Positions 36,498 through 57,851 of a DNA stretch of 64,000 bases are shown one piece after another. How positions within the stretch are numbered: the stretch's first letter is position 1; each line of letters starts with the position of its first letter. The position numbers and the translations under genes were made by a program. Origin of the DNA: Pseudoxanthomonas sp. JBR18 (GTDB lineage: Bacteria > Pseudomonadota > Gammaproteobacteria > Xanthomonadales > Xanthomonadaceae); NCBI RefSeq assembly GCF_028198165.1, contig NZ_CP116339.1, positions 3,789,001 to 3,853,000 of the forward strand, given 5' to 3'. The notes under the pieces are model-generated. The model was not told the DNA's origin and searched no databases. It saw nothing but the letters and a program-made list of their open reading frames with translations.

Positions 36498-36556
36498 GGC
36501 TGCCTTGGTGATATGGCGCCGTGGACGCCCGGCGGGGTCTGTCACGGTCGATATGG

Positions 36557-36715: not shown

Positions 36716-38437
36716 ATGTCCGATGGGACCGCGAAAGCGGGCATATCGTCGTGCGCGGATAGCGCCGCCGATCTGTTCGTCAGCAGCCTGGCGCGAGCCG
36801 GCGTGCGCTATTTCTTTGCCAATGGCGGCACCGATTTTCCGCCGATCGCGGAGGCTTTCGCCAGGGCGGCCGGCGCCGGCACGCCGATGCCCCGGCCGAT
36901 GGTCATTCCGCACGAGAACGTCGCGGTGGCCATGGCCCACGGCAGCTATATGATCGACGGCCAGCCGCAGGCGGTGATGGTCCACGTCAACGTCGGCACG
37001 GCCAACACCATCAACGCCGTGCTGGATGCCAGCCGCGACCTGACGCCTGTGCTGCTGTTCGCCGGGCGATCGCCATATTCCGAGCGCAGCCGCCACGGCA
37101 CGCGGACGCGGTACATCCACTGGGCGCAGGAAATGTTCGACCAGGCCGGCATGATCCGCGAAGCGGTCAAGTGGGACTACGAACTGCACCTGCCTGAGCA
37201 GGCGGGCGATATCGTGCAGCGGGCATTGCAAGTCGCGATGACTTCGCCGCGCGGGCCGACCTACGTCACGCTGCCGCGCGACGTGCTGGCCGAGTCGGTG
37301 GGCGAGCACCTGTCGACACCGCAGCCGCTGAAAGCGCCGTCGCCGCCGCTTCCGGATCCCCAGGACATCGCGACGCTGGCCGGCTGGATCCGTCAGGCCG
37401 AGCGACCGGTGCTCGTCACCGCCAGCGCCGGTCGCACCACCGCGGGTTTCGAGGCGCTCGCCACTTTTGCCGAGCGCTTCGGCATTCCAGTCGCGGTGTT
37501 CCACCCGCGTTTCCAGAACATCTCCACCGACCACCCGCTGTTTGCCGGCTATGACCCGGCGCCGCTGGTGGCCACAGCCGACCTGATCATCGCGCTGGAC
37601 TGCGACGTGCCATGGGTGCCGGCGGTGCAGGCGCCGCCGGCCGATTGCCGTGTCGCCCATCTAGGCGAAGACCCGGCGTACGTGCGGTACCCAATGCGCA
37701 GCTTCCGCACCGATCTTGCGTTATCCGGCATGACCGAGGTGCTGCTGCGCTCGCTTACCCATGCCATCGACGCCATGGGCGGTATCGCAGAGGAAATCGT
37801 GCAGTCGCGCACCGAACGGTGCAGCAAGAAGACCGCCGAACTGCGCAGCCAGTGGCGACTGGCTGCCGCACAACCGTCCGGGGCGATCACTCCAGAATGG
37901 ATCAGCGCCTGCCTTCGCGAGGCGGCTGGCGATGAAGCGATCATCGTCAACGAATATCCGCTGCGCCAGCAGCAGTTCCCACAGACCCAGCCGAACACTT
38001 ACTTTGGGCTAAGCCCGGCCGGTGGCCTGGGCTGGGGCCTGGGCGCGGCACTTGGCGCAAAACTGGCTGCGCCGGACAAGCTGGTGGTGGCCACGCTTGG
38101 CGATGGTGCCTACATCTTCGCCAATCCGACAGCCTGTCATTGGGTGAGCGAGGCGCACGCCCTTCCGGTGTTGACGGTGATCTTCAACAACGCCCTCTAC
38201 GGCGCGGTGCGCAATTCAACCAAGGCGATGTACCGCGATGGGCATGCCTCGCAGGAAGCACATCGCATGCTGGCCGACTTGTCGCCATCACCGCGCTTTG
38301 AACATGCGGTGGAAGCCAGCGGCGGGTTGGGCATTCGCGTCGAACGCGCCGACGAACTCCCAGCCGCGCTTGCGCGCGCGGTGGAGGCAGTCCGCGGGGG
38401 GCGCCAGGCGCTGGTCAACGTCCTCTGTGAGTACTGA
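36716..38437 (+). CDS. ThDP-dependent enzyme of the acetolactate synthase/benzoylformate decarboxylase superfamily
   Basis: 573 residues from ATG 36716, which has GGGAGG five to six bases upstream; an earlier GTG at 36662 lacks this. N-terminal Pyr domain with cofactor-activating Glu in VIPHENVAVAMAHG; central domain about 200-330; C-terminal PP domain with the ThDP motif LGDGAYIF...NNALYG. Cytoplasmic. Superfamily members decarboxylate 2-keto acids or join aldehydes to acyloins. It overlaps an FMN 2-hydroxyacid dehydrogenase region downstream, which recalls the mandelate pair MdlB-MdlC, so decarboxylation of an aryl- or furyl-glyoxylate to the aldehyde is the best guess. True acetolactate synthase is unlikely: no small subunit is present. 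Confidence 0.8.
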   Translation: MSDGTAKAGISSCADSAADLFVSSLARAGVRYFFANGGTDFPPIAEAFARAAGAGTPMPRPMVIPHENVAVAMAHGSYMIDGQPQAVMVHVNVGTANTINAVLDASRDLTPVLLFAGRSPYSERSRHGTRTRYIHWAQEMFDQAGMIREAVKWDYELHLPEQAGDIVQRALQVAMTSPRGPTYVTLPRDVLAESVGEHLSTPQPLKAPSPPLPDPQDIATLAGWIRQAERPVLVTASAGRTTAGFEALATFAERFGIPVAVFHPRFQNISTDHPLFAGYDPAPLVATADLIIALDCDVPWVPAVQAPPADCRVAHLGEDPAYVRYPMRSFRTDLALSGMTEVLLRSLTHAIDAMGGIAEEIVQSRTERCSKKTAELRSQWRLAAAQPSGAITPEWISACLREAAGDEAIIVNEYPLRQQQFPQTQPNTYFGLSPAGGLGWGLGAALGAKLAAPDKLVVATLGDGAYIFANPTACHWVSEAHALPVLTVIFNNALYGAVRNSTKAMYRDGHASQEAHRMLADLSPSPRFEHAVEASGGLGIRVERADELPAALARAVEAVRGGRQALVNVLCEY

Positions 38438-38450
38438 GCAGGCCCTGGGC

Positions 38451-39674
38451 ATGACGACGCCTGCAGCCCCTCATGCGACGCGCGGGTGGGGCACTGGTGG
38501 CCTGAGTGGCGCCGCGGCCTCGCTTCGCCGCCGCTATCCAGCCATTGATGACCTGGAGCGCGGGGCACGTCGGCGTGCCCCGCGATTTGCCTACGATTTC
38601 GTCGCTGGCGGACTCGGCGACGACGTCTGCCTGCTGCGTAACCGTGCGGCGCTGGACGCGGTCCAGATCACCCCGCGCTATGGCTTGGACGTGGCGGGCG
38701 TGGATACCGGTGTGGACCTGTTCGGTCGTCATTACGCCATGCCGATCGGTATCGCGCCGATGGGCTTGGCCGGGCTGCTGCGCAGCGGCGCAGATGAATC
38801 CCTGGCCGCCGCGGCGCAAGCGGCGAACATTCCCTATACCTATTCGTCGGTCGGCAATTCCACGATCGAGCGCATCGGCCAACTCGCGCCGGATGTGTTC
38901 TGGTACCAGCTCTATGGTGTTCCGGCCAATCAGCACCGCGTGTCCCTGGACCTGATCCGCCGCGCCGACCATGCCGGCGCACGCGTGCTGGTGGTGACGC
39001 TGGACGTGCCGGTGCGGGCCAAGCGTGCGGGTGATGTACGCAACGGGTTGGTCGTGCCATTCAAACCGCGCGTGCGGACCGTGCTGGATGTCGTGCGCGC
39101 GCCCCGCTGGGCGCTGGACATGCTGCGACACGGCCAGCCGCGCTTCGGCAATTTCGAGCCCTACGTTGGTCCCAAGCCGAGTACGCAGGATCTGGCGACC
39201 TATGTCTTCCAGCAGATGGCCGGGCCGATGACCTGGGACGCACTGGCTCGCCTACGCGAGGCCTGGCCACGCGCAATGGTGGTCAAAGGCGTCCTCCATC
39301 CCGATGACGCGGAGCGCGCAGTTCAGCTGGGCATGGATGGCGTGCTGGTTTCAAACCATGGCGGACGTCAGTTCGATGCCTCGCCAGCTGCGGTGGATGC
39401 GCTGCCGGCCATCGTCCAGCGCATCGGTGACCGCGCGACGGTGCTGGTCGATGGTGGCATGCGCCACGGCGTGGACGTGTTGCGGGCGCTGCACCGCGGC
39501 GCCCATGCGGCGCTGTCCGGCCGTGCGTTCCTGTGGGGCCATGGTGCAGCCGGTGCGGCGGGCGCTGCCCACGTCGCGGCATTGTTCAACGAAGAATATC
39601 GGATCGCGCTGGCTCAGTCCGGTGCGCGCGGCACGCAGGAAGCTCGCGCAGGAGGCGCCGCAACACCGCACTGA
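38451..39674 (+). CDS. FMN-dependent alpha-hydroxy-acid dehydrogenase (lactate/mandelate dehydrogenase family)
   Basis: 407 residues from ATG 38451; GTG 38427 overlaps the previous stop and is the alternative. Family pattern: FAYDFVAGGLGDD, PIGIAPMGLAGL, YSSVGNSTIE, FWYQLYG, LVVTLDVPV, VVKGVL, and the active-site His/Arg block SNHGGRQFDASPA followed by VLVDGGMRHG. Members oxidise L-lactate, glycolate or (S)-mandelate to the 2-keto acid, passing electrons to quinone or oxygen. Directly after a ThDP decarboxylase-type gene it suggests a 2-hydroxyacid to keto acid to aldehyde sequence. Substrate not determined. Confidence 0.88.
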   Translation: MTTPAAPHATRGWGTGGLSGAAASLRRRYPAIDDLERGARRRAPRFAYDFVAGGLGDDVCLLRNRAALDAVQITPRYGLDVAGVDTGVDLFGRHYAMPIGIAPMGLAGLLRSGADESLAAAAQAANIPYTYSSVGNSTIERIGQLAPDVFWYQLYGVPANQHRVSLDLIRRADHAGARVLVVTLDVPVRAKRAGDVRNGLVVPFKPRVRTVLDVVRAPRWALDMLRHGQPRFGNFEPYVGPKPSTQDLATYVFQQMAGPMTWDALARLREAWPRAMVVKGVLHPDDAERAVQLGMDGVLVSNHGGRQFDASPAAVDALPAIVQRIGDRATVLVDGGMRHGVDVLRALHRGAHAALSGRAFLWGHGAAGAAGAAHVAALFNEEYRIALAQSGARGTQEARAGGAATPH

Positions 39675-39680
39675 ATCAGC

Positions 39681-39700
39681 CCGCGGTCAAGCGACCGCGG
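39681..39700 (+). terminator. Hairpin after the hydroxyacid dehydrogenase gene
   Basis: Perfect 8-bp stem CCGCGGTC/GACCGCGG with AAGC loop, six bases after the stop. No T-run follows, so it may attenuate rather than end transcription into the symporter-hmf genes, or stabilise the 3' end. Confidence 0.45.
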
Positions 39701-39749
39701 TCCACCGCATATTGATTCGCGTCATGACGCTTTCCTGGGAGGGGAGGAA

Positions 39750-39821
39750 ATGAAACCGAAGCAAACGATAGACGCAGGACTTGTCCGATACGTACTGGCG
39801 GAGGGTCGCGCACATGCATGA
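39750..39821 (+). CDS. Possible 23-residue leader peptide coupled to the symporter
   Basis: ATG 39750 follows an ideal ribosome site (GGGAGGGGAGGAA). The frame encodes MKPKQTIDAGLVRYVLAEGR plus three residues and stops at 39821, overlapping the symporter ATG (39814) by eight bases. The strong site and overlap suggest translational coupling or a regulatory leader. No homologue is recognised; it could be chance. Confidence 0.4.
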   Translation: MKPKQTIDAGLVRYVLAEGRAHA

Positions 39822-41226
39822 GGCCCGATGGTTCGTTCTCGCCGGCGTGGCGGCCTACATGGTGGCGCTCAGCCTGGTCAGCTTCTGGTCGCTGCGCTAT
39901 TCGCGTAACGCCGGTTCGTACACCTCCGGTACCGGGCATGGTCAGCGCACCATACCAGCGGCGTTGATCGGCCTGCTGTTGATGTCCGAGTTCATCGGCA
40001 CCACAGCCAGCGTCGGCACCGCGCAGTACGCCTACCAGTACGGCATCTCCGCCGGCTGGAACATCGCGGTGCTTGGTATCGGCTTCCTGATTTTTTCCTT
40101 CCTGTTGGCGCGCAAGTACAAAGAGCTGGGCGAGAACACGATCTCGGGCGTGCTCGACAGAACCTATGGTCCGCGGGTGAAGGTTGCCACGTCGATCATC
40201 ATGATTTTCGCGCTGCAGATCGTGGCGGTGTCGACCTATGCCAGCGGCGGCGCGGTCCTGGCACCGCTGTTGGGCGTCGATCGAAAGCTGGGGACCATCG
40301 TGATGGGCGCGCTGGCGGCGATCTATGTCGGCGTAGGTGGCATGCGCTCGGTGATCTATACCAACGTCATCCATGGCGTGGTGATCTTTACCGGCATCTT
40401 CTTCGCCCTGTGGTTTGGCGTGGACCAGGTCGGTGGCTGGCAGGCGCTACAGGCCAAGGTGCCGCCGGAGTTCTGGTCGTTGACCAAGGTCGGTTGGCCG
40501 CAGATCATCGCGTGGCTTGTGGCCGGCGCTGGCGCGACCTTCGCCACCCAATATGTGATCCAGGCCATCGCCACGGTCAATGATGGCGGCAAGGCACGGG
40601 TGGCGTCGGTCTTCGCCTCGCTGTACCTGATCCCGTTCGGCTTTGCAGCGGCACTGTGCGGCATGTGCGCGCTGGTGTTGTATCCGGATGTCGCGCCGCT
40701 GCAGGCATTTCCGTCACTGGTGTCCGGCATGGATCGCCTGCTTGCGACCTTCGTGGTGGCCGGCCTGACAGCGGCCGTGTTTGGCACGATCTCCGCGCTC
40801 AACATCGGCACGGCTACGCTGCTGCTCAAGGACTTCTACCTGCCGATCACCAAACGCGACGCCGAGCATCCACGCTCGCTGCTGTTCGTGCGTGCGGCCA
40901 CGGTGCTGGTCGGCGTCCTCCCTCTGCTGCTGGCGCTGTTCGCGGCCGACGTAGTCAAGGTGACCTTCTTGGCCAAGGCGCTGAGGGCCTCGCTGGCGGT
41001 GCTGGTGTTCATGGCGTTCTACTCACCGCGTTTCGGCACCCGTACCGGCGCCATCATCAGCATCGCGCTGTCACTGATCGGCACGATCGGCTGGTTCTTG
41101 GCCGGTAACCCCTTCGGGATCGATAACGCTTATGTCGCTCTGGCCATCCCGTTGGTCGTGATGACGTTGAGCCACCTGTTCGGCGGCAAGCCGGTCGCAG
41201 GCCCGTTAAGCGCAAAGGCAAGATGA
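39814..41226 (+). CDS. Sodium:solute symporter family transporter
   Basis: 470 residues from ATG 39814 (GGAGGG eight bases upstream); a TTG at 39781 is less likely. Twelve or more membrane segments, with the SSS-family pattern EFIGTTASVGTAQYAYQYG near the start, GVGGMRSVIYTNVIHG in the middle, and the second-repeat sodium-site region FGTISALNIGTATLLLKD. It overlaps hmfA by four bases (ATGA), so it is in the furoyl-CoA operon and probably imports a furan carboxylate or related hydroxy acid with Na+. The substrate is inferred. Confidence 0.9.
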   Translation: MHEARWFVLAGVAAYMVALSLVSFWSLRYSRNAGSYTSGTGHGQRTIPAALIGLLLMSEFIGTTASVGTAQYAYQYGISAGWNIAVLGIGFLIFSFLLARKYKELGENTISGVLDRTYGPRVKVATSIIMIFALQIVAVSTYASGGAVLAPLLGVDRKLGTIVMGALAAIYVGVGGMRSVIYTNVIHGVVIFTGIFFALWFGVDQVGGWQALQAKVPPEFWSLTKVGWPQIIAWLVAGAGATFATQYVIQAIATVNDGGKARVASVFASLYLIPFGFAAALCGMCALVLYPDVAPLQAFPSLVSGMDRLLATFVVAGLTAAVFGTISALNIGTATLLLKDFYLPITKRDAEHPRSLLFVRAATVLVGVLPLLLALFAADVVKVTFLAKALRASLAVLVFMAFYSPRFGTRTGAIISIALSLIGTIGWFLAGNPFGIDNAYVALAIPLVVMTLSHLFGGKPVAGPLSAKAR

Positions 41227-44219
41227 ACCCGCTTGACACGCTCGAGCACGATGCGTCGGTGACGCCCGGTCAATGGACTGGGCGCTCGCTGCCTCGCGTG
41301 GAAGACGCCGCCCTCCTGACCGGGCGTGGCCGCTATTTCGATGATGTCGGCGTGCCGCCGCGCACGCAGCACGCGGCCATCCTTCGTTCGCCCCACGGCC
41401 ACGCGCGCTTGGTCAGCATCAATGTGGATAACGCCCGTGCGCTGGACGGCGTGTCGGCCGTGCTGACCGGCGAGGACATTCAGGCGCTCACCACCAGCCT
41501 CGTGGTCGGGGTCAAGGCGCCGATTGAATGCTGGCCCATCGCGACCGACCGCGTGCGCTATGTCGGCGAGCCGGTGGCGATCGTGGTTGCACGAGATCGC
41601 TATCTGGCTGAAGACGCCATGGATCTGATCGAGGTCGAGTACGAAGCGCTGGACGCGGTGGTCGATCCACAGCGGGCCGTCGCCACCGACGCGCCGGTGC
41701 TGCACGAAGGGCTGGGCAGCAACATCGCCAGCGAGCGGTCGTTCCGCTATGGCGATCCGGAAGCAGCCTTTGCGCAGGCGCCGCACCGCGTGTCGGTGGA
41801 CGTGCGCTATCCGCGCAACAGCTGCACGCCGATCGAGTGCTATGGCGTACTGGCCGAGTACGACCCTGGCATCGACGGCTACGACGTGCTGGCCAACTTC
41901 CAGGGCCCTTTCAGCATCCACGCAGTGATCTCGCGGGCGCTGAAGGTACCTGGCAACCGCCTGCGCCTGCGCACGCCACCCGAGTCCGGTGGCAGCTACG
42001 GCATCAAGCAGGGCATCTTCCCCTACATCGTGCTGATCGCCGCCGCCGCGCGTGTGGCGCGGTGCCCGGTGAAGTGGGTCGAGGACCGGCTGGAGCACCT
42101 GTCCGCCTCGGTCTGCGCGACCAACCGCGACACCACCTTGGAGGCCGCGGTCGATGCCGAAGGCCGCGTACGTGCCCTTGCTTGGGACCAGCTGGAGGAT
42201 TGCGGCGCGCACCTGCGCGCGCCCGAACCGGCCACGCTGTACCGCATGCACGGCAACATGACCGGCGCATACGCGATCGAGCACGTGTCGATCCGCAACC
42301 GCGTGGTCCTGACCAACAAGATGCCGACGGGCCTGAACCGTGGCTTTGGCGGTCCGCAGGTGTACTTCGCGCTGGAACGGCTGATGCAGCGTATCGCCGT
42401 CGAACTCGACCTCGATCCGCTCGAGGTGATCCGTCGCAACCTGGTGCCGGCCGAGGCGTTTCCGTATCGCACTGCGACCGGCGCGCTGCTGGATTCCGGC
42501 GACTACCTCACCGCGGTGGATCGCGCGGTGGAAGCGGGGGGCTTGGCCGAGCTGATCGCGCGCCGTGACGCCGCGCGCGCCGAGGGGCGGCACTATGGCA
42601 TCGGCTTCACCGCCGCGGTCGAGCCCAGCGTGTCCAACATGGGCTACATCACCGCGGTGCTCACGCCCGAGCAGCGCGCCAAGGCCGGTCCGAAGAATGG
42701 CGCGCAGGCCACCGCGACGATTCAGATCGACGCGGTCGGTTCGGTCAGCGTGCACGTGGCCTCGGTGCCGCAGGGCCAGGGCCATCGCACCGTGATCTCG
42801 CAGGTGGTCGCCGATGTCTTCGGCTTGACCCCGCGCGAGATCCGCGTGGTCACCGAGATGGACACCGCGCGCGATGCCTGGTCGATCGCCTCGGGCAACT
42901 ATTCCAGCCGTTTCGCCGCCGCCGTGGCTGGCGCCGCGCATATCGCCGCCACGCGCTTGCGCGAGAAGCTGGCAAAGATCGCCGCCGCGCAGCTCAAGTG
43001 CGAGTGGGACGAGATCGAGTTTGCCGACGGCACGCTGCGGCGGAAGGACAGCGAAGCCAAGCCGCTGCCCTTCGCGCGCGTGGCATCAAGCAGCCACTGG
43101 GCACCTGGCACGCTGCCGGACGACGTCGATCATGCGATCCGCGAGACCGCATTCTGGACGCCGCCGCAGCTCACCGCGCCGGATGCGCAGGACGGCGTCA
43201 ACAGCTCGCTGTGCCACGGCTTCATCTTCGACTTCTGCGGCATCGAGATCGACCGCGACACCGCTGAAGTTCGCATCGACAAGTACGTGACCATGCACGA
43301 CTGCGGCCGGATCCTGCATCCGGGCATGGTCGAGGGGCAGGTCAACGGCGGCTACGCGCATGCGCTGGGCGCGGCGCTGTACGAAGAACACAGCTACGGT
43401 GCCGACGGCAGCTTCCTTTCCGGCACCTTCGCCGACTACCTGGTGCCGACCACCATGGAAGTGGTCTCGCCGCTGATCCTGCATCACGAGACGCCGTCGC
43501 CGTTTACGCCGCTGGGCGCCAAAGGCGTGGGCGAGGGCAACTGCATGTCCACGCCGGTGTGCCTGGCCAATGCCGTCGCCGATGCGCTGTCCATCAGTGA
43601 CGTCGAGTTGCCGTTGCTGCCCTCGCGCCTAGCGTTGCACCTGCACGGTGAGGAAGCACCGCCCAAGCGGCCGTTGGCCAAGAAAGCCGCGCCGCCGGCC
43701 AAGCCCGGCGAGCGCAAGCTCACCGGCGAAGGCATCGCCAAGGTGTCCGCCCCGCGCCAGCAGGTGTGGGAGATGCTGCTGGACCCGGATACGCTGGCCT
43801 CGGTGATTCCCGGCGCGCACGGCATCGAGAAGCCGTCACCGACCGAGTTCACTGCCGACGTCACCCTCGGCATCGGTCCGGTCAAGGGGCGCTACAAGGC
43901 CAAGGTTGGCCTGTACGACTTGAACGAGCCCGAGTCGCTCACGCTCAAGGGCACCACCACCGGCGCGCTGGGCTTCGGCAACGGCAGCGGTGCAGTGACC
44001 CTGAAGGAACCGACGCCCGGCCAGACCGAAATCCATTACCAGTACGAGGTTGTCATCGGTGGCAAGGTCGCGTCCATCGGCGGGCGCCTGCTGGACGGCG
44101 CGGCCAAGGTGGTGATCGGCCAGTTGTTCGACGGGCTTGCGTCCAAGGCCGGCGGCGGCCGCGGTGGCCTTGTCGGCTGGTTCAAGCGCGTGCTGCGCAA
44201 GTTCGGGGTCAACTTGTGA
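41223..44219 (+). CDS. hmfA: Furoyl-CoA dehydrogenase large (molybdenum) subunit with fused CoxG domain
   Basis: 998 residues. Residues about 15-800 are the molybdopterin hydroxylase large subunit: hammerhead domain with VRYVGEPVAIVVA, molybdenum-domain glycine loops LNRGFGGPQ and PQGQGHRTV, and the catalytic Glu in GAKGVGEGNCM. After a Lys/Pro-rich linker (about 810-835) comes an SRPBCC/CoxG-like domain of about 160 residues (GEGIAKVSAPRQQVWEMLLD, then VIPGAHGIEK), usually a separate protein assisting cofactor insertion or membrane attachment. Order large-FAD-2Fe2S followed by CoA ligase and hydrolase equals hmfABCDE of Cupriavidus. It hydroxylates 2-furoyl-CoA at C5. CO dehydrogenase or 4-hydroxybenzoyl-CoA reductase are the alternatives. 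Confidence 0.85.
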   Translation: MNPLDTLEHDASVTPGQWTGRSLPRVEDAALLTGRGRYFDDVGVPPRTQHAAILRSPHGHARLVSINVDNARALDGVSAVLTGEDIQALTTSLVVGVKAPIECWPIATDRVRYVGEPVAIVVARDRYLAEDAMDLIEVEYEALDAVVDPQRAVATDAPVLHEGLGSNIASERSFRYGDPEAAFAQAPHRVSVDVRYPRNSCTPIECYGVLAEYDPGIDGYDVLANFQGPFSIHAVISRALKVPGNRLRLRTPPESGGSYGIKQGIFPYIVLIAAAARVARCPVKWVEDRLEHLSASVCATNRDTTLEAAVDAEGRVRALAWDQLEDCGAHLRAPEPATLYRMHGNMTGAYAIEHVSIRNRVVLTNKMPTGLNRGFGGPQVYFALERLMQRIAVELDLDPLEVIRRNLVPAEAFPYRTATGALLDSGDYLTAVDRAVEAGGLAELIARRDAARAEGRHYGIGFTAAVEPSVSNMGYITAVLTPEQRAKAGPKNGAQATATIQIDAVGSVSVHVASVPQGQGHRTVISQVVADVFGLTPREIRVVTEMDTARDAWSIASGNYSSRFAAAVAGAAHIAATRLREKLAKIAAAQLKCEWDEIEFADGTLRRKDSEAKPLPFARVASSSHWAPGTLPDDVDHAIRETAFWTPPQLTAPDAQDGVNSSLCHGFIFDFCGIEIDRDTAEVRIDKYVTMHDCGRILHPGMVEGQVNGGYAHALGAALYEEHSYGADGSFLSGTFADYLVPTTMEVVSPLILHHETPSPFTPLGAKGVGEGNCMSTPVCLANAVADALSISDVELPLLPSRLALHLHGEEAPPKRPLAKKAAPPAKPGERKLTGEGIAKVSAPRQQVWEMLLDPDTLASVIPGAHGIEKPSPTEFTADVTLGIGPVKGRYKAKVGLYDLNEPESLTLKGTTTGALGFGNGSGAVTLKEPTPGQTEIHYQYEVVIGGKVASIGGRLLDGAAKVVIGQLFDGLASKAGGGRGGLVGWFKRVLRKFGVNL

Positions 44220-47059: not shown

Positions 47060-47095
47060 GCCGTTACCTTTCACGTTCCCACAAGGCAGAACCCC

Positions 47096-47881: not shown

Positions 47882-47929
47882 TCGCTTCGCCCGCCAGGCG
47901 CGACCGCGCATGCGCGCCGCGCCGTCGTC

Positions 47930-47960
47930 CCACGCGCGTGCGGCGCGCGTGGATTTTTTT
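47930..47960 (+). terminator. Rho-independent terminator after hmfE
   Basis: Perfect 8-bp stem CCACGCGC/GCGCGTGG (47930-47937 and 47945-47952) with a 7-base loop, followed by A and seven T. It ends the hmfABCDE transcript 48 bases after the stop, so hmfH probably has its own promoter or depends on read-through. Confidence 0.8.
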
Positions 47961-48002
47961 CCAGGCCTGCGCCGCGTGGCGCGGGCCGCGGAGGGGAGTG
48001 CG

Positions 48003-50027: not shown

Positions 50028-50636
50028 CTAGTTCTCCTCGCTCACCGCGACATCCACTCCCTGCCGCCACCGCTTCACCGTCCCCGTCTCAATCTCGAAC
50101 AGATCCAATACCCGGCCGACGGTGTGGTCGACCATCTCATCGATCGACGACGGCCGCGCGTAGAACGCTGGCACCGGCGGGGCGATGATCGCGCCCATCT
50201 CCGACAGCTGGGTCATGCTGCGCAGGTGGCCGGTGTGCAGCGGCGTCTCGCGCACCATCAGGACCAGGCGGCGGCGCTCCTTGAGCACCACGTCGGCGGC
50301 GCGGGTCAGCAGGCTGGAGGTCACGCCGGTGGCGATCTCGGACATCGAACGCATCGAGCACGGGGCGATGATCATGCCGCGCGTGCGGAACGAGCCCGAC
50401 GAGATGCCCGCGGCGATGTCGTGATGCGCGTGGACCTGCGTGGCCAGCGCCTTGACGTCGGCAATCTTCAGGTCGGTCTCGTGGGCGATGGTGATCTCGG
50501 CGGACTTGGACATCACCAGGTGCGAGGGAATCTGCAGGGCCTTGAGCATTTCCAGCAGGCGCACGCCGTAGATCACGCCACTGGCGCCGGAGATGCCGAC
50601 AATCATCGGCGGATTCTGGTGCGGGTCTGCACGCAT
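50028..50636 (-). CDS. hmfG: UbiX-type flavin prenyltransferase
   Basis: 202 residues from ATG 50636, preferred because AGGAG lies eight bases upstream; ATG 50660 overlaps the aldehyde dehydrogenase stop. Flavoprotein pattern: VGISGASGVIYGVRLLE at the N-terminus, MSKSAE, FRTRGMIIAPCSMRSMSEIATG, and VLMVRETPLHTGHLR. It makes prenylated FMN, the cofactor UbiD enzymes need. The partner is HmfF, encoded 4.3 kb away on the other strand in the same island. A housekeeping UbiX for ubiquinone is less likely given the co-transcribed dehydrogenase. Confidence 0.9.
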   Translation of the reverse strand: MRADPHQNPPMIVGISGASGVIYGVRLLEMLKALQIPSHLVMSKSAEITIAHETDLKIADVKALATQVHAHHDIAAGISSGSFRTRGMIIAPCSMRSMSEIATGVTSSLLTRAADVVLKERRRLVLMVRETPLHTGHLRSMTQLSEMGAIIAPPVPAFYARPSSIDEMVDHTVGRVLDLFEIETGTVKRWRQGVDVAVSEEN

Positions 50637-50659
50637 CGGGTTTTCTCCTGAGTCGGCCA

Positions 50660-52117: not shown

Positions 52118-52341
52118 GGAGGCGGTCCTGTGTGCGTGGCGCACGACGATCCGGACGCGTCGGTGGCAGGACGCCTGGTGCGTAACGGCAACGGCCCGCG
52201 GCCGCGTCGATGCACGCTGCATCCCACCGCGCCTCCCGACCGCCGCGCCCCGAGGAATCGAAGTTCGGCGGCGGCACGCCCGCGGATGGCGCGCCACTCC
52301 CAGAGGCGACGCTAGCGCGGCACTATCATCAAGTCTAATAA

Positions 52342-53280
52342 TCAGTCCTTATCTTTTTTATCAGATGATCTGATGAGAATCGGCTCCAGCGATGCGCGAG
52401 TGTCGTGCAGCGCATCGCGCAGGCGCTCGACCAGCAGCGTGGCTGCCGGACCCAACGGGTGACGCGCCTGGTGGATGACCACCAAGTGGCGGGTGATGCG
52501 GGAGCGACCGATCGAGTAACCGACCAGGGAGCCGTCCAGCAGCTGCCGGTGCACGGCGATGCTGGGCAGTACGGTGAACCAGTCGCTGCGTGCGACCAGG
52601 TCGGCGATCGAGTCGGTCGAGTCGATCTCCAGTTGCGGTTCCAGTTCGACCGTGAGACCGGCCATATGGCGCTCCAGTTCGGCGCGCAGGCCGTGGCGCT
52701 TGGACGGCAGCACCAGCTTCAGCGCGGTCACGTCGCCGAGCGAGCGGATCGGCGGCGGCACGTTGCCGCGCGCGCCGACCAGGACCATCTCTTCTTCCAG
52801 CAACGGGATCATCTCCAGGCCCAGGCGCCGCGCCGGCCGGTTGATCACCGCCAGGTCCAGGCGCCCCGTGTTGACCCACTCGATGAAAGTCTGCGAATAA
52901 CCATCGGCGATGGAGATGCGCACCTCGGGATAGTCGGCCGAGTAGGCCATCAGCACCGCGGGGATCACGCTGCGCGTGACCGAGGACAGCACGCCGATGG
53001 ACACCTCGCCCGAGACCGTGCCGGACAGGTTGGCCATATGCGTCATCGCAGCGGCCAGGTCGCGCTGGATCGGCGTCACCAGCCGATGCAGGGTGCGGCC
53101 GGCCGCGGTCGGCACCATGCGTTTGGGCGTGCGCTCGAACAGTTTCTGTTCCAGCTCCCGCTCCAGCTTGGCGATCTGCATCGACAGCGCAGGCTGGACC
53201 ACGTTCATGCGCTGGGCCGCGCGCGTGACGCTGCCTTCTTCGTACAGCGCCAGGAAGTAGTTGATCTGCCGCAGGTCCAT
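52342..53280 (-). CDS. LysR-family regulator of the furan island
   Basis: 312 residues from ATG 53280 with GGGAGGGG upstream. N-terminal helix-turn-helix over residues about 3-62 (LRQINYFLALYEEGSVTRAAQ, then MNVVQPALSMQIAKLE), followed by the periplasmic-binding-like effector domain. It is divergent from the MFS-hmfF-porin operon and precedes the aldehyde dehydrogenase and hmfG genes on the same strand, the usual layout for an activator responding to a pathway acid. The inducer, perhaps furoate or furandicarboxylate, is inferred. Confidence 0.9.
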   Translation of the reverse strand: MDLRQINYFLALYEEGSVTRAAQRMNVVQPALSMQIAKLERELEQKLFERTPKRMVPTAAGRTLHRLVTPIQRDLAAAMTHMANLSGTVSGEVSIGVLSSVTRSVIPAVLMAYSADYPEVRISIADGYSQTFIEWVNTGRLDLAVINRPARRLGLEMIPLLEEEMVLVGARGNVPPPIRSLGDVTALKLVLPSKRHGLRAELERHMAGLTVELEPQLEIDSTDSIADLVARSDWFTVLPSIAVHRQLLDGSLVGYSIGRSRITRHLVVIHQARHPLGPAATLLVERLRDALHDTRASLEPILIRSSDKKDKD

Positions 53281-53493
53281 CGCCCCCTCCCGGGATGAAG
53301 TCAGAAAATTTGATGGATCATATCTAAATTCATTATTTGGAATTATCGATTGCCTGGGCGAGGCTGCGGCCATTGCCCCTTCCGGGGTGCGCCCGTCGGG
53401 CAGGCCAACGCCGCAAGGCGCGATGCCCATGCGGCCTTGGCCGCGCACGGCTACAACTTGAGCAACGTTCATCCATTTCCGAGGAGGGGAAAC
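53281..53493. promoter_or_regulatory. Divergent lysR/MFS promoter region
   Basis: 213 bases with a markedly AT-rich core (about 53305-53350) in GC-rich surroundings. TGGATCAT at 53314-53321 also occurs in the promoter region at 36557. TGAT-GG-ATCA (53311-53320) forms a short inverted repeat fitting a LysR T-N11-A type site. Exact promoters are not resolved. Confidence 0.5.
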
Positions 53494-54843
53494 ATGAGCG
53501 GAACCATGACCTCGCCAGGCGGGGCGGCGGAGGCGGCTGCGCCCATTCCACCGCGCAAGGTGCTGCTCGCAGCATTTGCTTCCACCTTCGGGTGGGCGCT
53601 CGACCTGTTCGACCTGTTTCTGCTGCTGTATGTCGCCCCGATCGTGGGCCGGCTGTTCTTCCCCTCGCATACGCCCACGCTGTCGCTGGCGGCGGTCTAC
53701 GCCTCTTTCGCGGTGGCGCTGCTGGTGCGTCCGCTGGGCTCGGCCGTGTTCGGTGCCTATGCCGACCGCAAGGGCCGCAAGATCGCGCTGATGGTGGCAA
53801 TGGTCGGCGTCGGCCTGGCCACCGCCGCCTTCGGCGTGCTACCGACCATCGAGCAAGTCGGATACCTGGCGCCGGTGCTGTTCCTGGCCCTGCGCGTGGT
53901 GCAAGGCCTGTTTGTCGGCGGCATCGTGGCTTCCACCCACACCATCGGCACCGAATCGATCCCACCGCAGTACCGCGGCCTGGTGTCCGGCCTGGTCGGC
54001 GGAGCCGGCGCGGGAATCGGCGCGCTGATGGCCTCGGTCGCGTACTTCGTGCTGTCGGGCATCTTTCCCGATGCGCAGTTCGATCAATGGGGCTGGCGCT
54101 TCATGTTCTTCACCGGCCTGATCAGCACGGCCTTCGGCCTGATCATGTTCAAGTTTCTGGAGGAATCTCCGGTCTGGAAGCAGCTGCAGGAGGCCAAGGT
54201 CAGCGGCAAGGTCGCGGCGGCACCCAAGCTCTCGCCGGTGCGCCGCGTGTTCGGCCGTGAATACCGCAAGATCATGCTGGTCAACCTGCTGATCACCTTC
54301 GGTGGCGGCGCCACCTACTACCTGACCTCCGGCTATCTGCCGACGCTGCTCAACCTGGTCGCCAAGGTGCCGCACGGGCAGAGCTCGCACATCCTGATGT
54401 GGGGCTCGGTGGCAGTGATCGTCAGCTCGCTGTGCTTCGGTTGGCTCAGCGACAAGGTCGGCCGTAAACCGAGCTTCCTGGTCGCCGGCCTGGCCGCGAT
54501 GGTCTGCCTGCCGCTGCTGTTCCATGGCGTCAGCGGTGTAGCCGGATCGGTCGACAGGGTGCTGCTGTACGCGGTGGCGATCTCGCTGATCGGCGGCGCG
54601 GCGATCGCGCCGATCATGATCTTCCTCAACGAGCGCTTCTCCACCGATCTGCGTGCCAGCGGCACCGGCTTGAGCTGGAACATCGGTTTCGCGCTGGGCG
54701 GCACCATGCCGACCTTCGTCTCCCTCGCCAGCGCCACGCCTGAGCAGATCCCGACTGTGCTGGCGGTGTTCACCGGCGTGATCGGGCTGATCTACCTGAT
54801 CGGCGCGGTGGTCATTCCCGAAACGCGCGGCAAGACGCTCTGA
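53494..54843 (+). CDS. MFS transporter, aromatic/furan acid:H+ symporter type
   Basis: 449 residues from ATG 53494 (GAGGAGGGG upstream). Twelve membrane segments are expected. The signature between helices 2 and 3 is ADRKGRKIALM, repeated as SDKVGRKPSFL in the second half, and TIGTESIPPQYRG lies in the 4-5 region, all typical of the metabolite:H+ symporter family. It heads the operon with hmfF and the porin, so import of furandicarboxylate or furoate across the inner membrane is likely. Confidence 0.9.
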   Translation: MSGTMTSPGGAAEAAAPIPPRKVLLAAFASTFGWALDLFDLFLLLYVAPIVGRLFFPSHTPTLSLAAVYASFAVALLVRPLGSAVFGAYADRKGRKIALMVAMVGVGLATAAFGVLPTIEQVGYLAPVLFLALRVVQGLFVGGIVASTHTIGTESIPPQYRGLVSGLVGGAGAGIGALMASVAYFVLSGIFPDAQFDQWGWRFMFFTGLISTAFGLIMFKFLEESPVWKQLQEAKVSGKVAAAPKLSPVRRVFGREYRKIMLVNLLITFGGGATYYLTSGYLPTLLNLVAKVPHGQSSHILMWGSVAVIVSSLCFGWLSDKVGRKPSFLVAGLAAMVCLPLLFHGVSGVAGSVDRVLLYAVAISLIGGAAIAPIMIFLNERFSTDLRASGTGLSWNIGFALGGTMPTFVSLASATPEQIPTVLAVFTGVIGLIYLIGAVVIPETRGKTL

Positions 54844-54972
54844 CGCCGCAGGATCGCGCGGCGCATGGCGTCCGGGCGATCCCCCTGCAATTTCCCGCCG
54901 GCACAGGGGCGTGCCGGTGTTCACACACCACGTGCGCAGTCCCTGGCGCGCGGCAGAACGATGGAGTCAACC

Positions 54973-56388
54973 ATGGCTGATTCGAATTCCCAAACCGTGC
55001 GTACGAGTGGTGCGCTGTCGCTGCGCGAATGGCTGGACCGCCTATCCGAGCGTGGTGCACTGGCCGTGGCGCGAGACGGGCTCAAGCTGCGCCACCAGAT
55101 CGCCGCGGTCGCGCACAAGCTGGATGGCCGCCAGGCCACGTATTTCCCCAATCCCGATGGCGCACATGCGATCCCGGTCATCTCCGGCATCGTCTCCGAC
55201 CGTGGATGGATGGCCGAGGCCCTGGGCGTGGCGCAGGAGGATCTGTTGGCCCGCTTCCAGCACGCCGCATCCAATCCGATCCCCTTCAAGGAAGTCACCG
55301 ACGCGCCGGCGCAAGAGGTCGTGCACACCGACGTCGACCTGCTCAAGCAGCTGCCGATCCCGACCCACAACGAACACGACAGCGGCGCCTACATCACCGC
55401 CGGCCTGCTGATTTCGCGCAGCCCGGAAACCGGCATCCAGAACGTCGCCATCCACCGCTGCCAGATCAGCGGCAAGAACCGCATCGGCGTGCTGCTGCTT
55501 CCGCGCCATACCGACCACTACTACCGCATGGCCGAAAAGGACGGCAAGCCGCTGCAGATGGCAATCGCCATCGGCGTGGACCCGGCCACGTTGCTGTCCT
55601 CGCAGGCAATCGTGCCGGTTGATCACGACGAATTGGAGATCGCCGGTGCGCTGCATGGCCAGCCGCTGGAGGTGGTCAAGTGCACCACCAACGAAGTGCG
55701 CGTGCCGGCGCATGCCGAGATCATCATCGAAGGCCGCCTGCTGGCCGACGAACGCGAGGAAGAAGGCCCGTTCGGCGAGTTCCCCCAGTATTACGGCGAG
55801 CGCGCGCGCCGCCATGTGATCGAGGTCGATGCGATCACCCATCGCCGCGACGCGATGTTCCACACCATCGTCGGCGGTGGCCTGGAGCATTTGCTCCTGG
55901 GTGCGATCCCGCGCGAGGCCACCATCCTCAACGAACTGCAGCGCAGCTTTCCCGGCGTGCAGGACGTACATCTGGCGCTGGGCGGCGTCGGCCGTTACCA
56001 CCTGTACGTCAAGCTGGCCAAGCGCCAGAACGGCGAGGGCAAGAACGTCATCCTCGGCGCGTTCGCCGCGCACTACGACATCAAGCATGTCGTGGTGGTG
56101 GATACCGATGTGGATATCCACAACCCGCAGGAAGTCGAGTGGGCGGTGTCCACGCGCTTCCAGGCCGACCGCGACCTGGTCGTGATCGGCAACTCGCAGG
56201 GTTCCAAGCTCGATCCGTCTACCGACGATGGCGTGGGCGCAAAGATGGGCCTGGACGCCACGATTCCGGTCGATGCCCCGGAGATGAAATACAAGCGCAT
56301 CCGCATCCCCGGCGAAGACACGCTGGACCTGGATGCGGTGATTACCAACAACCACGACTGGCGCGGAGCATCCAACCGCGTCGCATGA
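54973..56388 (+). CDS. hmfF: UbiD-family decarboxylase, probable 2,5-furandicarboxylate decarboxylase
   Basis: 471 residues from ATG 54973 with GGAG six bases upstream; ATG 54961 lacks a ribosome site. UbiD fold features: NVAIHRCQISGKNRIGV in the prenyl-FMN and metal region, the active-site Glu block EGPFGEFPQYY, and the C-terminal KRIRIPGEDTLD. The enzyme reversibly decarboxylates an unsaturated acid with prenylated FMN. With HmfABCDE in the same island, decarboxylation of furandicarboxylate to 2-furoate is the best fit. Protocatechuate- or vanillate-type decarboxylases are alternatives. It is coupled to the porin gene. Confidence 0.86.
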   Translation: MADSNSQTVRTSGALSLREWLDRLSERGALAVARDGLKLRHQIAAVAHKLDGRQATYFPNPDGAHAIPVISGIVSDRGWMAEALGVAQEDLLARFQHAASNPIPFKEVTDAPAQEVVHTDVDLLKQLPIPTHNEHDSGAYITAGLLISRSPETGIQNVAIHRCQISGKNRIGVLLLPRHTDHYYRMAEKDGKPLQMAIAIGVDPATLLSSQAIVPVDHDELEIAGALHGQPLEVVKCTTNEVRVPAHAEIIIEGRLLADEREEEGPFGEFPQYYGERARRHVIEVDAITHRRDAMFHTIVGGGLEHLLLGAIPREATILNELQRSFPGVQDVHLALGGVGRYHLYVKLAKRQNGEGKNVILGAFAAHYDIKHVVVVDTDVDIHNPQEVEWAVSTRFQADRDLVVIGNSQGSKLDPSTDDGVGAKMGLDATIPVDAPEMKYKRIRIPGEDTLDLDAVITNNHDWRGASNRVA

Positions 56389-56411
56389 AGACCTTCGGGA
56401 GGGGGAGCGCC

Positions 56412-57851
56412 GTGCACAAGCGCAAGATCACGCTATTCATCACCATTGCCATGGCGGCGGGCGCGCCCACCGCGCAGGCGCAGGTCGCCAGCAAGGATGC
56501 GGGGTATCCGCTGGCCGCGCAGGGCTGGGGCGGCAAGACCGGTGCCGACACCTGGTTGTCGCGCTACGTCGAGGACTGGTCCGTGCTGCGCGATCCAGCC
56601 AAGCGCACCGGGATGTTCGACGGGCTCAAGTACATCCCGTTCAACGACAGCGGTAGCGCCTATCTCAGCCTGAGCATGGAGCAGCGCTTCCGTGGCAACT
56701 ACTACAGCGCCATCGGCCTGCGCGACGGCGCGGCCTCGCAGTCGCCTTGGCTGTATCGCGCCTTCCTCGGCGCGGACCTGCACGTGGGCGAGCATTTCCG
56801 TGCATTTACAGAATTGGCGCACGGCAGCTACGACGGCCGCAACGTCACCAGCAAGCCGGTCTCACAACAAGACGACGCCACGCTGCAGCAGGCCTTCGTC
56901 GACCTGACCGGCAAGTGGGGCGATGCCGATGTCGGTATGCGCGTGGGACGCCAGGACTTCCAGGATGGTCCGCAGTGGCTGGTAACCACGCGCGAGAATG
57001 CCAACACCCGCATCACGTTCGACGGCGTGCGTGCCTGGGCGATCGGCGCGGACAAGCGCCTGGACGTGTTCGACTACCGCTACGTGGACCAACAGAGCGG
57101 CTACTTCGACGATGGCACGCTGTCGAGCAAACGTTTCAGCGGCGTGCTGGCCGGCTTTCGGCTGGCGGGCACTGGCCTGTACCTGGACCCGTTCTGGTTC
57201 CACGCCAGCGATGACAACAAGGCCTGGGGCGGCAAGGCCGCCAAGGAGACGCGCGACTACTTCGGCGTGCACTTCTACGGCACGCACGGCGCGCTGACCT
57301 TCGACACCGCGGCGATCTACCAGACCGGCGACTTCGGCGACCGCGACCTGCGCGCCTATTCGGCGTACTCGACCTTCAACTGGAAGCTGTCCACGCAGGG
57401 CTGGTCACCGCAACTCGGCTTCCACGCCGACCTCAGCTCCGGCGGCGGCGCCTACGGCACCGGCACGCTGCACAACAGTTCGATCCTGTTCGGCAGTGGC
57501 CCGTATCACAGTTGGGGAACCTGGTTCGGCGCATCGAACTACATGGCGTTTGCGCCGATCTTCCAGTTCGCGCCGACCAAAACCACTAGCGTGCAGCTGC
57601 AGTACCAGCGGGTTTGGCGCGAGGACACCCGCGATGCCGTCTACACCAGCACCGGCGCGCCGTACGCCGGTACTCAGCTGATCGGTGGCAAACACACCGG
57701 TGACCTGTTGCGCCTCAACACGACCTGGAAGGTCAACCGCTACGTATCTTTCACCGCGCGTGCCGAGCGGTTCCTCGCTTCGTCATCGATGGAGGATGCC
57801 GGGTTCGGCGATGCCACGTTCTTCGGCGGCTGGATGACCTTCAGATTCTGA
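56412..57851 (+). CDS. Outer-membrane porin (alginate-export/aromatic porin type)
   Basis: 479 residues from GTG 56412, chosen for the strong GGGAGGGGGAG just upstream; ATG 56385 overlapping the hmfF stop would add nine residues. A signal peptide ends PTAQA. The rest alternates in beta-barrel fashion, rich in aromatic girdle residues, with VGRQDFQDGPQWLVTTREN typical of the alginate-export-like family, and ends with FFGGWMTFRF, a terminal-strand Phe. It likely provides outer-membrane entry for the acid taken up by the MFS carrier. The final terminator closes the operon. Confidence 0.85.
   Translation: MHKRKITLFITIAMAAGAPTAQAQVASKDAGYPLAAQGWGGKTGADTWLSRYVEDWSVLRDPAKRTGMFDGLKYIPFNDSGSAYLSLSMEQRFRGNYYSAIGLRDGAASQSPWLYRAFLGADLHVGEHFRAFTELAHGSYDGRNVTSKPVSQQDDATLQQAFVDLTGKWGDADVGMRVGRQDFQDGPQWLVTTRENANTRITFDGVRAWAIGADKRLDVFDYRYVDQQSGYFDDGTLSSKRFSGVLAGFRLAGTGLYLDPFWFHASDDNKAWGGKAAKETRDYFGVHFYGTHGALTFDTAAIYQTGDFGDRDLRAYSAYSTFNWKLSTQGWSPQLGFHADLSSGGGAYGTGTLHNSSILFGSGPYHSWGTWFGASNYMAFAPIFQFAPTKTTSVQLQYQRVWREDTRDAVYTSTGAPYAGTQLIGGKHTGDLLRLNTTWKVNRYVSFTARAERFLASSSMEDAGFGDATFFGGWMTFRF

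Follow-up and report, generated by a model that had tools for sequence, protein, structure and literature searches.

A sharply bounded block of 15 genes on a Pseudoxanthomonas chromosome (~21 kb, positions 36716-57851 of the 64,000-nucleotide stretch analysed, here called the window) raises the question of whether it encodes furan degradation by the Hmf pathway, and what the genes at its 5' end contribute. The initial annotation had read the block as an Hmf island with a candidate for every step. All the genes that it named were found in place as open frames, every named Hmf step being represented, and family matches were obtained for HmfA to HmfH and for the aldehyde dehydrogenase (ALDH) (Table 1). 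This interpretation stood for the core genes but was incomplete, since it overlooked the portability of the block and the pair of genes at its 5' end, where a TPP enzyme is followed by an FMN dehydrogenase and the GMC gene is not first. We consider it likely that the block is a horizontally acquired, self-contained cassette for growth on furans, possibly with a side entry that resembles the mandelate pathway. Judged from sequence, the novelty appears to be that of a variant, in which the TPP/FMN pair and portability are added to a known core.

Identity of the Hmf core enzymes

The UbiD protein was nearest to HmfF among solved structures (6h6v, 457 bits; next family AnInD, 243 bits), and the GMC protein was nearest to HMF oxidase (4udp, 472 bits; next family, 217 bits), in agreement with the furan substrates first proposed. 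In the alignment to 6h6v, H306 and H297 of the UbiD protein matched chain residues 296 and 287, respectively, both candidate positions for the furan-specificity His being kept. His297 is given as this residue of HmfF (PMC7976604).

We weighed these matches against a pathway for aromatic acids without furans, in which a protocatechuate-type UbiD would act with a molybdenum enzyme of the CO dehydrogenase or 4-hydroxybenzoyl-CoA reductase type. The proteins belong to the same broad superfamilies, and the best PDB match of HmfA was a CoxL (383 bits), but the scores of the HmfA, UbiD and GMC proteins favoured the furan families. HmfA fell far below the cut-offs for CO dehydrogenase (474 vs 950 and 423 vs 991) and for 4-hydroxybenzoyl-CoA reductase (TIGR03194, 367 vs 995). 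Furthermore, the CoxL Cys loop, whose Cys belongs to the CO dehydrogenase active site, was absent from HmfA in the HmfA-CoxL alignment. The UbiD protein scored 174-186 bits against 3,4-dihydroxybenzoate/protocatechuate decarboxylases in the PDB comparison and was below the VdcC cut-off (298 vs 650). On these results we rejected the CO dehydrogenase and 4-hydroxybenzoyl-CoA reductase readings of HmfA and the protocatechuate-type reading of UbiD, the groupings that the initial annotation had regarded as fatal to its furan reading. The name 2-furoyl-CoA dehydrogenase was carried by ~30 of the 120 relatives listed for the molybdenum subunit, and relatives of HmfA at 70-74% identity are named as the large subunit of that enzyme. 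An aromatic acid pathway is already contradicted by the sequence and is very improbable.

The molybdenum hydroxylase subunits were seen in the order large-FAD-2Fe2S (41223-45543), as first described, with the CoA ligase and crotonase genes (HmfD and HmfE, 45536-47881) directly downstream. Among the 80 named hmfA loci that were kept, hmfC, hmfD and hmfE came after hmfAB in 77, and in the remaining three (L037, L080, L081) the contig ends just past the matched genes. All 15 genes were syntenic in three other Pseudoxanthomonas genomes (58-96% protein identity). On both counts the grouping of the genes goes beyond chance. HmfG exceeded the UbiX-type cut-offs (NF004685, 270 vs 188; TIGR00421, 249 vs 109). 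The ALDH reached no NCBIfam cut-off among the best 25 of 40 families, its likeness to succinate-semialdehyde dehydrogenase (SSADH) being sub-threshold (336 vs 646). The three transporters noted earlier (symporter, MFS and porin) were present, the best NCBIfam match of the MFS protein, TIGR00883, being below cut-off. The symporter gene overlaps hmfA by 4 bp, and the FMN gene starts ~14 bp past the TPP gene. An alpha/beta hydrolase gene (35673-36545) was considered for the lactone or ring-opening hydrolase that the block lacks, and was rejected because it lies outside the conserved block, where homology ends at 36582; it was not found in the examined stretches of the three other Pseudoxanthomonas loci, nor in loci L017-L019.

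The furan reading of the block is supported by these comparisons, with substrate roles that are predicted. Roles were assigned by family and synteny, and the chemistry of the core steps is that of published Hmf work. Oxidation of HMF-type alcohols and furan aldehydes by HmfH and the ALDH would lead to FDCA, which HmfF, together with HmfG (prFMN), would decarboxylate to 2-furoate. HmfD would convert this to 2-furoyl-CoA, which HmfABC would hydroxylate, and HmfE would release 2-oxoglutarate.

As far as the available parts of the published descriptions go, the cassette shares HmfABCDE, HmfF with a UbiX partner, a LysR regulator and transporters with the clusters of Cupriavidus basilensis HMF14 and Pseudomonas umsongensis GO16, and it has HmfH as in C. 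basilensis, while GO16 has PsfG instead (PMC6678421, PMC12064950). According to the same parts, it differs from both in that its operon is headed by the TPP enzyme, the FMN 2-hydroxyacid dehydrogenase and a sodium symporter, in its additional alginate-export-type porin, and in having no XdhC/PsfD-type or AraC gene among its 15 genes. An XdhC maturation gene is described for the Cupriavidus pinatubonensis and GO16 clusters, and its absence from these 15 counts against our reading.

Table 1. Features of the furan cassette (window positions) and the evidence for each.
Feature	Position	Strand	Evidence
TPP-dependent enzyme, benzoylformate-decarboxylase-like; proposed furyl-glyoxylate decarboxylase	36716..38437	+	NF006203, nearest PDB group, active-site alignment
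FMN-dependent 2-hydroxyacid dehydrogenase, mandelate-dehydrogenase-like; proposed furyl-glycolate dehydrogenase	38451..39674	+	PF01070 366 bits; 6bfg; active-site residues
Sodium:solute symporter (alternative start 39781)	39814..41226	+	PF00474
HmfA, 2-furoyl-CoA dehydrogenase large subunit, C-terminal CoxG domain	41223..44219	+	Family scores, names of relatives
HmfB, FAD subunit	44216..45043	+	PF00941; synteny
HmfC, 2Fe-2S subunit (alternative start 45031)	45052..45543	+	PF01799/PF00111
HmfD, furoyl-CoA synthetase	45536..47059	+	PF00501; present in 77/80 loci
HmfE, crotonase-fold 2-oxoglutaroyl-CoA hydrolase candidate	47096..47881	+	PF00378; present in 77/80 loci
HmfH, GMC oxidoreductase (HMF/HMFCA oxidase)	48003..49694	+	PDB 4udp, 472 bits
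HmfG, UbiX-type flavin prenyltransferase (alternative starts 50636, 50660)	50028..50606	-	NF004685, TIGR00421
Aldehyde dehydrogenase	50660..52117	-	PF00171 457 bits
LysR regulator	52342..53280	-	PF00126, PF03466
MFS transporter, metabolite:H+ symporter type	53494..54843	+	PF07690, PF00083
HmfF, FDCA decarboxylase (UbiD)	54973..56388	+	PDB 6h6v, 457 bits
Outer-membrane channel, alginate-export type	56385..57851	+	PF13372 167 bits
Portable cassette	36582..57851	.	Homology edges vs 3 other Pseudoxanthomonas; empty site

Portability and origin of the block

Homology to the three other Pseudoxanthomonas genomes ended at or near the edges of the cassette (36582 and 57851), and Luteimonas FCS-9 had the same left edge. 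The site that the cassette takes up in two of these three is empty in the present genome. From these sharp edges and the empty site, we infer that the block is portable. HmfA was nested among alphaproteobacterial sequences in the tree, which suggests that the cassette was gained horizontally. We rejected an integrative mobile element moved by repeats, a tRNA or an integrase: no tRNA was found within the window, no integrase among the 15 genes, and no repeat joining both edges among those listed (the best 20 of the 30 families of direct repeats, and 17 pairs of inverted repeats). No paper on hmf genes in Pseudoxanthomonas, or in Xanthomonadaceae among the literature matches listed, none of which named the family, was found by title or start of abstract. 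With the cassette, the range of the Hmf pathway would come to include Xanthomonadaceae, in the form of a single transferable unit of use for furan detoxification and FDCA work.

The TPP/FMN pair

The TPP enzyme scored above cut-off as a 'thiamine pyrophosphate-requiring protein' (NF006203, 697 vs 456) and below cut-off as a benzoylformate decarboxylase (NF005485, 148 vs 493), although the latter enzyme was its nearest PDB group (96 bits). Its E67, H90 and H315 aligned with E47, H70 and H281 of benzoylformate decarboxylase, which are active-site residues of that enzyme. E67 and H90 were invariant, and H315 was conserved in at least 90%, across 27 aligned sequences (the protein itself and 26 picked from the 120 relatives listed; one row, P0214, looks partly frameshifted). 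For the FMN enzyme the best full-length PDB match was (S)-mandelate dehydrogenase (6bfg, 227 bits), whose active site comprises Y26, Y131, D158, R165, H274 and R277 along with Gly81, a residue with a role in aromatic substrates. Six of these seven residues are kept (H303, R306, R192, Y155, D185 and G105), and the Tyr26 position is taken by F50; 4-hydroxymandelate oxidase likewise has Phe there in the alignment. Most of the checked active-site residues are thus common to the pair and to benzoylformate decarboxylase and mandelate dehydrogenase. Since the Arg/His residues of the alpha-hydroxy-acid site are conserved, the substrate of the FMN enzyme is probably an alpha-hydroxy acid.

In Azospirillum sp. 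B510 (pAB510a), the TPP, FMN and symporter (SSS) genes occur in the same order and are followed by UbiD and hmfABCDE. Azospirillum oryzae carries TPP-FMN-SSS-UbiD with UbiX-LysR-ALDH on plasmid unnamed6, whose full length showed no HmfA match exceeding 35% identity; its hmfABCDE genes lie on another plasmid, unnamed4. These modules resemble the cassette in TPP-FMN-SSS, UbiD and UbiX-LysR-ALDH; they differ from it in that no GMC match was found in the two 40-kb Azospirillum stretches bearing both genes, and in the split from hmfABCDE in A. oryzae. Loci with an HmfF-type UbiD and one or both genes were also found in Luteimonas, Jiella, Acetobacteraceae, Roseomonas and Bradyrhizobium. The FMN gene adjoins UbiD in two Acetobacteraceae and LysR-UbiX-UbiD in Bradyrhizobium hereditatis, and the TPP gene adjoins UbiD in Roseomonas KE2513; Jiella has TPP-FMN-UbiX-LysR-UbiD, its FMN protein being only 48% identical.

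Most hmf loci examined were without the pair. In flanks reaching no further than 10 kb, an FMN gene with at least 50% identity was found in 6 of the 80 hmfA loci, and a TPP gene with at least 55% in 4. HmfF-like proteins were found in 28 plasmid records (25 listed), and only two Azospirillum records were shared with the TPP and FMN lists (the best 15 of 31 and of 26, respectively). Away from hmf, TPP relatives were found on a Roseomonas marmotae plasmid without HmfA (58%), as a second, split copy in Roseomonas KE2513, and in Geminicoccaceae (47%). Neorhizobium galegae has FMN-TPP-ALDH without UbiD, the ALDH gene being annotated as SSADH.

This distribution bears on whether the pair might be unrelated passengers of an ordinary HMF/furfural cluster, such as a route for mandelate or lactate that shares the operon by chance. 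The scarcity of the pair among the 80 loci and the occurrence of both families elsewhere fit such passengers, as does the fact that published hmf clusters, in the available parts of their descriptions, name no TPP or FMN genes. On the other hand, none of the four Pseudoxanthomonas cassettes found is without the pair, which Luteimonas FCS-9 retains too, and other lineages again show it together with HmfF-type UbiD, including as the plasmid module with UbiD/UbiX/ALDH/LysR. We regard passengers as rather unlikely.

It is improbable that the FMN enzyme is an alternative oxidase for HMFCA (5-hydroxymethyl-2-furoate) replacing HmfH/PsfG, with the TPP enzyme acting as a carboligase or lyase that detoxifies furan aldehydes. 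The Azospirillum stretches without a GMC match would suit such an oxidase, and carboligases and benzaldehyde lyase are among the TPP relatives in the PDB comparison. However, HmfH is also present in Pseudoxanthomonas, the conserved Arg/His residues of the FMN enzyme imply an alpha-hydroxy acid, and the TPP enzyme keeps both His positions of benzoylformate decarboxylase.

Nor do we give much credence to a role below the pathway, in which the FMN enzyme would oxidise L-2-hydroxyglutarate, the TPP enzyme would convert 2-oxoglutarate to succinate semialdehyde and the ALDH would yield succinate. The Hmf pathway does end at 2-oxoglutarate, and the sub-threshold SSADH likeness of the ALDH and the annotation of the Neorhizobium trio point the same way. 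Yet in A. oryzae the module, with UbiD/UbiX, and the genes that yield 2-oxoglutarate are on different plasmids, and the FMN enzyme keeps Gly81 of mandelate dehydrogenase; this role is quite improbable.

A putative side entry for furan alpha-hydroxy acids

We give a little less than even weight to the proposal that the symporter, the FMN dehydrogenase and the TPP enzyme form a side entry for furan alpha-hydroxy acids. The symporter would take up a furan with a CH(OH)COOH group, the FMN enzyme would turn this alpha-hydroxy acid into the glyoxylate, the TPP enzyme would decarboxylate the furyl glyoxylate to a furan aldehyde, and the acid then made by the ALDH would enter at HmfF or HmfD. In Pseudomonas putida, the mandelate pathway (mandelate dehydrogenase and benzoylformate decarboxylase) is similar in its enzyme families and in its order from hydroxy acid to keto acid to aldehyde. 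The cassette differs from it in having no mandelate racemase among its 15 genes, in coupling the pair to furan genes, and in the TPP score and Phe substitution. A side entry is favoured by the active-site residues of the pair, by the close spacing of the TPP and FMN genes and the overlap of the symporter gene with hmfA, and by the recurrence of these genes with HmfF-type UbiD. The rarity of the pair in hmf loci, the occurrence of both genes away from hmf, the TPP score below the benzoylformate decarboxylase cut-off, the Phe at the Tyr26 position and the absence of a bacterial route from the literature matches for furan alpha-hydroxy acids count against it.

As for the substrate, a 5-carboxy-type 2-furylglycolate, which would yield 5-formyl-2-furoate and then FDCA, is favoured by the recurrent linkage of the pair to HmfF, although as a specific assignment it is doubtful. 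More broadly, and still tentatively, the system may be an undescribed furan entry in which 2-furylglycolate or 5-carboxy-2-furylglycolate, imported by its own sodium symporter, would reach the HmfF/HmfABCDE trunk through a mandelate-like FMN/TPP pair; the system would be portable in Xanthomonadaceae and form a separate plasmid module in Azospirillum. The split in A. oryzae makes the side entry separable from the trunk pathway for testing. The pair may act on a class of compounds for which a limited literature search, in the parts of the sources available, revealed no bacterial route.

Glucose can be turned into furylglycolic acid by way of cortalcerone, which wood-decay fungi produce as a metabolite. 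Because of this origin, the side entry, if true, could allow the bacterium to feed on a compound related to a proposed fungal antibacterial, or to render it harmless. DHA, KDO and other 3-deoxy-2-ulosonic acids are a conceivable sugar-acid source of 5-carboxy-furylglycolate; the literature matches listed held nothing usable on such an origin.

A 'plant-cell-wall sugar locus' had also been noted earlier in the window. A sample of eight proteins from it included two TonB receptors, one protein whose GH5 match barely exceeded the cut-off (27.3 vs 23.5) and a 2888-aa protein with GH94/glucoamylase domains, which we take to be a cyclic-glucan-synthase architecture.

Gene content and identity of the Hmf enzymes

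The furan (Hmf) cassette comprises 15 genes, all in open frames, in a 4.6-Mb single-contig genome (contig C1). All named genes of the complete Hmf pathway claimed in the initial annotation were present, but it had missed two genes at the start of the block, encoding a TPP enzyme and an FMN 2-hydroxyacid dehydrogenase. The hmfA gene shares 4 bp with the symporter gene before it and 4 bp with hmfB after it, and the TPP, FMN and symporter genes are therefore most likely part of the hmf operon. HmfA carries a CoxG domain at its C-terminus. The product of an xdhC-type gene is the usual maturation partner. This gene lies away from the cassette, whereas it accompanies the hmf cluster in Cupriavidus pinatubonensis and, according to PMC12064950, in GO16.

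Features of the cassette and its surroundings (window coordinates unless contig C1 is named)
Feature	Coordinates	Strand
Window	C1:3789001-3853000	
GH94 + glucoamylase protein (2888 aa)	22515-31181	
Alpha/beta hydrolase, divergent	35673-36545	
Cassette, 15 genes	36716-57851	
1, TPP enzyme	36716-38437	+
2, FMN 2-hydroxyacid dehydrogenase	38451-39674	+
3, sodium:solute symporter	39814-41226	+
4, HmfA		+
5, HmfB		+
6, HmfC		+
7, CoA ligase HmfD		+
8, crotonase HmfE		+
9, GMC HmfH		+
10, UbiX HmfG		-
11, aldehyde dehydrogenase		-
12, LysR		-
13, MFS transporter		+
14, UbiD HmfF		+
15, alginate-export-type porin		+
JetD and JetC genes	58456-63073	
xdhC-type gene	C1:584049-584477	

The furan reading was compared with other affiliations of HmfF and HmfABC and withstood both comparisons. 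The UbiD protein scored 457 bits against 6h6v, an HmfF structure according to PMC8988006, 243 against the indole-carboxylate decarboxylase AnInD and 174-186 against 3,4-dihydroxybenzoate/protocatechuate decarboxylase structures; a protocatechuate decarboxylase identity was thus rejected. PMC7976604 names His297 as the key residue for furan specificity of HmfF. Histidines 287 and 296 of the 6h6v chain, near the His297 place, are both kept in the alignment (H297 and H306 of the UbiD protein). HmfA scored far under the curated cut-offs of CO dehydrogenase and 4-hydroxybenzoyl-CoA reductase; its closest solved relative was a CoxL (383 bits), the Cys loop of which was absent from their alignment, and both identities were rejected. 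Among the 120 best HmfA relatives listed, about 30 (hand count) bear the name 2-furoyl-CoA dehydrogenase large subunit; the remainder have generic names or none. The GMC protein matched HMF oxidase (4udp) at 472 bits, with the next family at 217. Elsewhere in the window, the 2888-aa protein has what we take to be the architecture of a cyclic beta-glucan synthase rather than of a plant-cell-wall enzyme.

Distribution of the hmf genes and the TPP/FMN pair

HmfF orthologues (87-100% identity) were found in four of 37 same-genus genomes, JBR18 included; a fifth match, at 35%, was outside the family (61 genomes searched in all). With at most two candidates scored per genome, 7 of the 398 phylum genomes sampled, JBR18 included, had HmfA at E <= 1e-220, the other six being 57-60% identical. 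From 266 stretches with a pattern match, 261 of which encode a relative, the best-matching 80 named hmfA loci were kept. Nearly full 10-kb flanks were present in only 57 of these, so that locus counts are lower bounds: hmfC, hmfD and hmfE each in 77, HmfF in at least 32, UbiX in at least 31 and GMC in at least 8. In a quick HmfA tree (85 rows), five Xanthomonadaceae rows formed one group (support 100) adjoining Sphingomonas, Rhizobium and Afipia rows (97) within the alphaproteobacterial part, while two Azospirillum rows, also alphaproteobacterial, fell outside on long branches with the sole Cupriavidus row. This suggests, short of proof in a midpoint-rooted tree of rows picked by similarity with one betaproteobacterial row, that the Xanthomonadaceae gained the hmf genes horizontally.

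The pair is rarer. Of the 80 loci, six had an FMN match at >=50% identity (three Xanthomonadaceae, two Acetobacteraceae and Bradyrhizobium hereditatis) and four had a TPP match at >=55% (three Xanthomonadaceae and Roseomonas KE2513). Across the 398 phylum genomes, where no more than three or four candidates were scored in each, the best matches beyond JBR18 were 47% for FMN (E <= 1e-90; 3 genomes matched, JBR18 among them) and 42% for TPP (E <= 1e-100; 10 genomes, again with JBR18). At E <= 1e-130 the TPP protein matched JBR18 alone among 149 family genomes, and the other three cassette genomes were not among the matches. In Azospirillum sp. B510, TPP-FMN-SSS-UbiD-hmfABCDE (SSS, the symporter) is accompanied by UbiX-LysR-ALDH. 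A. oryzae carries this module, TPP-FMN-SSS-UbiD and UbiX-LysR-ALDH, on plasmid unnamed6, along the entire length of which HmfA had no match above 35%; its hmfABCDE genes are on plasmid unnamed4, together with an AraC gene. In both strains the identity to our proteins is 65-72% for TPP, FMN, UbiD, UbiX and ALDH and only 60% for HmfA, so the module seems to have a history of its own there, apart from HmfA. In Jiella, TPP-FMN-UbiX-LysR-UbiD and hmfA share a contig, about 10 kb apart; the FMN protein there (48%) barely exceeds the best phylum-sample match. Other results count against the association of the pair with HmfF: no furan genes were found beside the TPP relatives of Roseomonas marmotae (no HmfA on the plasmid) or Geminicoccaceae. 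Roseomonas KE2513 has a second, apparently broken TPP copy (locus L119, G596:C164) split into overlapping pieces that lie in two different frames, with no hmf genes matched in the 18-kb stretch. Neorhizobium galegae has an FMN-TPP-ALDH trio without UbiD, which suggests that the hydroxy acid to keto acid to aldehyde to acid chemistry also moves as a unit outside furans. In B. hereditatis a different TPP enzyme (28% identity; locus L084, 7210-8943) lies between UbiD and hmfA, possibly an independent recruitment.

A proposed side entry to the pathway

The TPP protein is a member of NF006203 (697 bits against a cut-off of 456), for which no reaction is stated, and falls under the benzoylformate decarboxylase cut-off (148 against 493). 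Its nearest solved group is nevertheless benzoylformate decarboxylase, and the positions of Glu47, His70 and His281, presumably functional residues of that enzyme, correspond to E67, H90 and H315, conserved across 27 aligned sequences. The best full-length solved relative of the FMN protein is (S)-mandelate dehydrogenase (227 bits), outscored in sum by two lactate-oxidase entries with doubled domains. It retains mandelate dehydrogenase Gly81, Tyr131, Asp158, Arg165, His274 and Arg277 and has Phe at the Tyr26 position.

We propose that the FMN enzyme would oxidize a hydroxy acid to a keto acid, probably passing electrons to the membrane, that the TPP enzyme would convert the keto acid to an aldehyde and CO2, and that the aldehyde dehydrogenase would yield the acid. 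As the pair is found together with HmfF, the aldehyde would most simply be 5-formyl-2-furoate, giving FDCA, the HmfF substrate; plain furylglycolate would give furoate, with no need for HmfF. There are leads to possible natural substrates: furylglycolic acid has been prepared from glucose via cortalcerone, a wood-decay fungal product proposed to be antibacterial (PMC7910265, partly from a reference title therein), and is a table entry among tobacco root exudate compounds (PMC3813511).

The published hmf clusters, in the available texts of PMC6678421 and PMC12064950, name neither a TPP nor an FMN 2-hydroxyacid gene, unlike our cassette, and the terms mandelate and benzoylformate are absent from those texts. 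Judged by title, abstract start and term counts, no paper among the matches listed joined mandelate-pathway enzymes with furoate genes; the sole listed match with both sets of terms was a general review on aldehyde-forming enzymes. Our cassette has HmfH; the stretches examined around the Azospirillum modules yielded no GMC match. The gene comparison with published clusters indicates that the HmfABCDE, HmfF/HmfG and HmfH genes are a new member of the known pathway and that the side entry is probably a new variant. The symporter is the least conserved cassette gene in P. winnipegensis and in G017, another cassette-bearing Pseudoxanthomonas genome (59% identity in both, against 86-96% for the Hmf proteins), and is 82% identical in P. 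composti; it thus appears to have been swapped.

Edges and chromosomal sites of the block

Nucleotide homology between our region and the three other Pseudoxanthomonas loci begins at window position 36758 in P. composti and at 36582 in the other two; in all three it ends at 57851, the porin stop codon. With upstream DNA of about 5.5 kb for P. composti and 5.3 kb for Luteimonas FCS-9, the left edge remained at 36758 for the former and was 36581 for the latter. To account for movement of the block, no tRNA was found in the window, no integrase among the 15 genes and no edge repeat among the repeats listed. The flanks of the G017 block adjoin in our genome at C1:876520-881002, where about 140 bases separate their matches. 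They also adjoin in G007 and, on contig C23, in G015, which has its own block on contig C8. Ours is without a 2.3-kb piece of one flank, and parts of that flank occur in repeated copies in these genomes. The other flank had one strong match in each of the six genomes except G014 (none); in G013 about 2.9 kb lies between the matches of the two flanks. G004 carries the block where G017 does, and the 5.3 kb preceding the P. composti block had no match to our region or to the G004 and G017 stretches. Together, the adjoining flanks, the shared site and the differing upstream DNA argue that the block occupies at least two chromosomal places in the genus, probably three.

A divergent alpha/beta hydrolase gene lies just outside the conserved block on the left. 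On the right, two genes of a Wadjet-type defence system, JetD and JetC (PADLOC: JetD1, 473 bits; JetC1, 1391 bits), start about 600 bases beyond the cassette edge.
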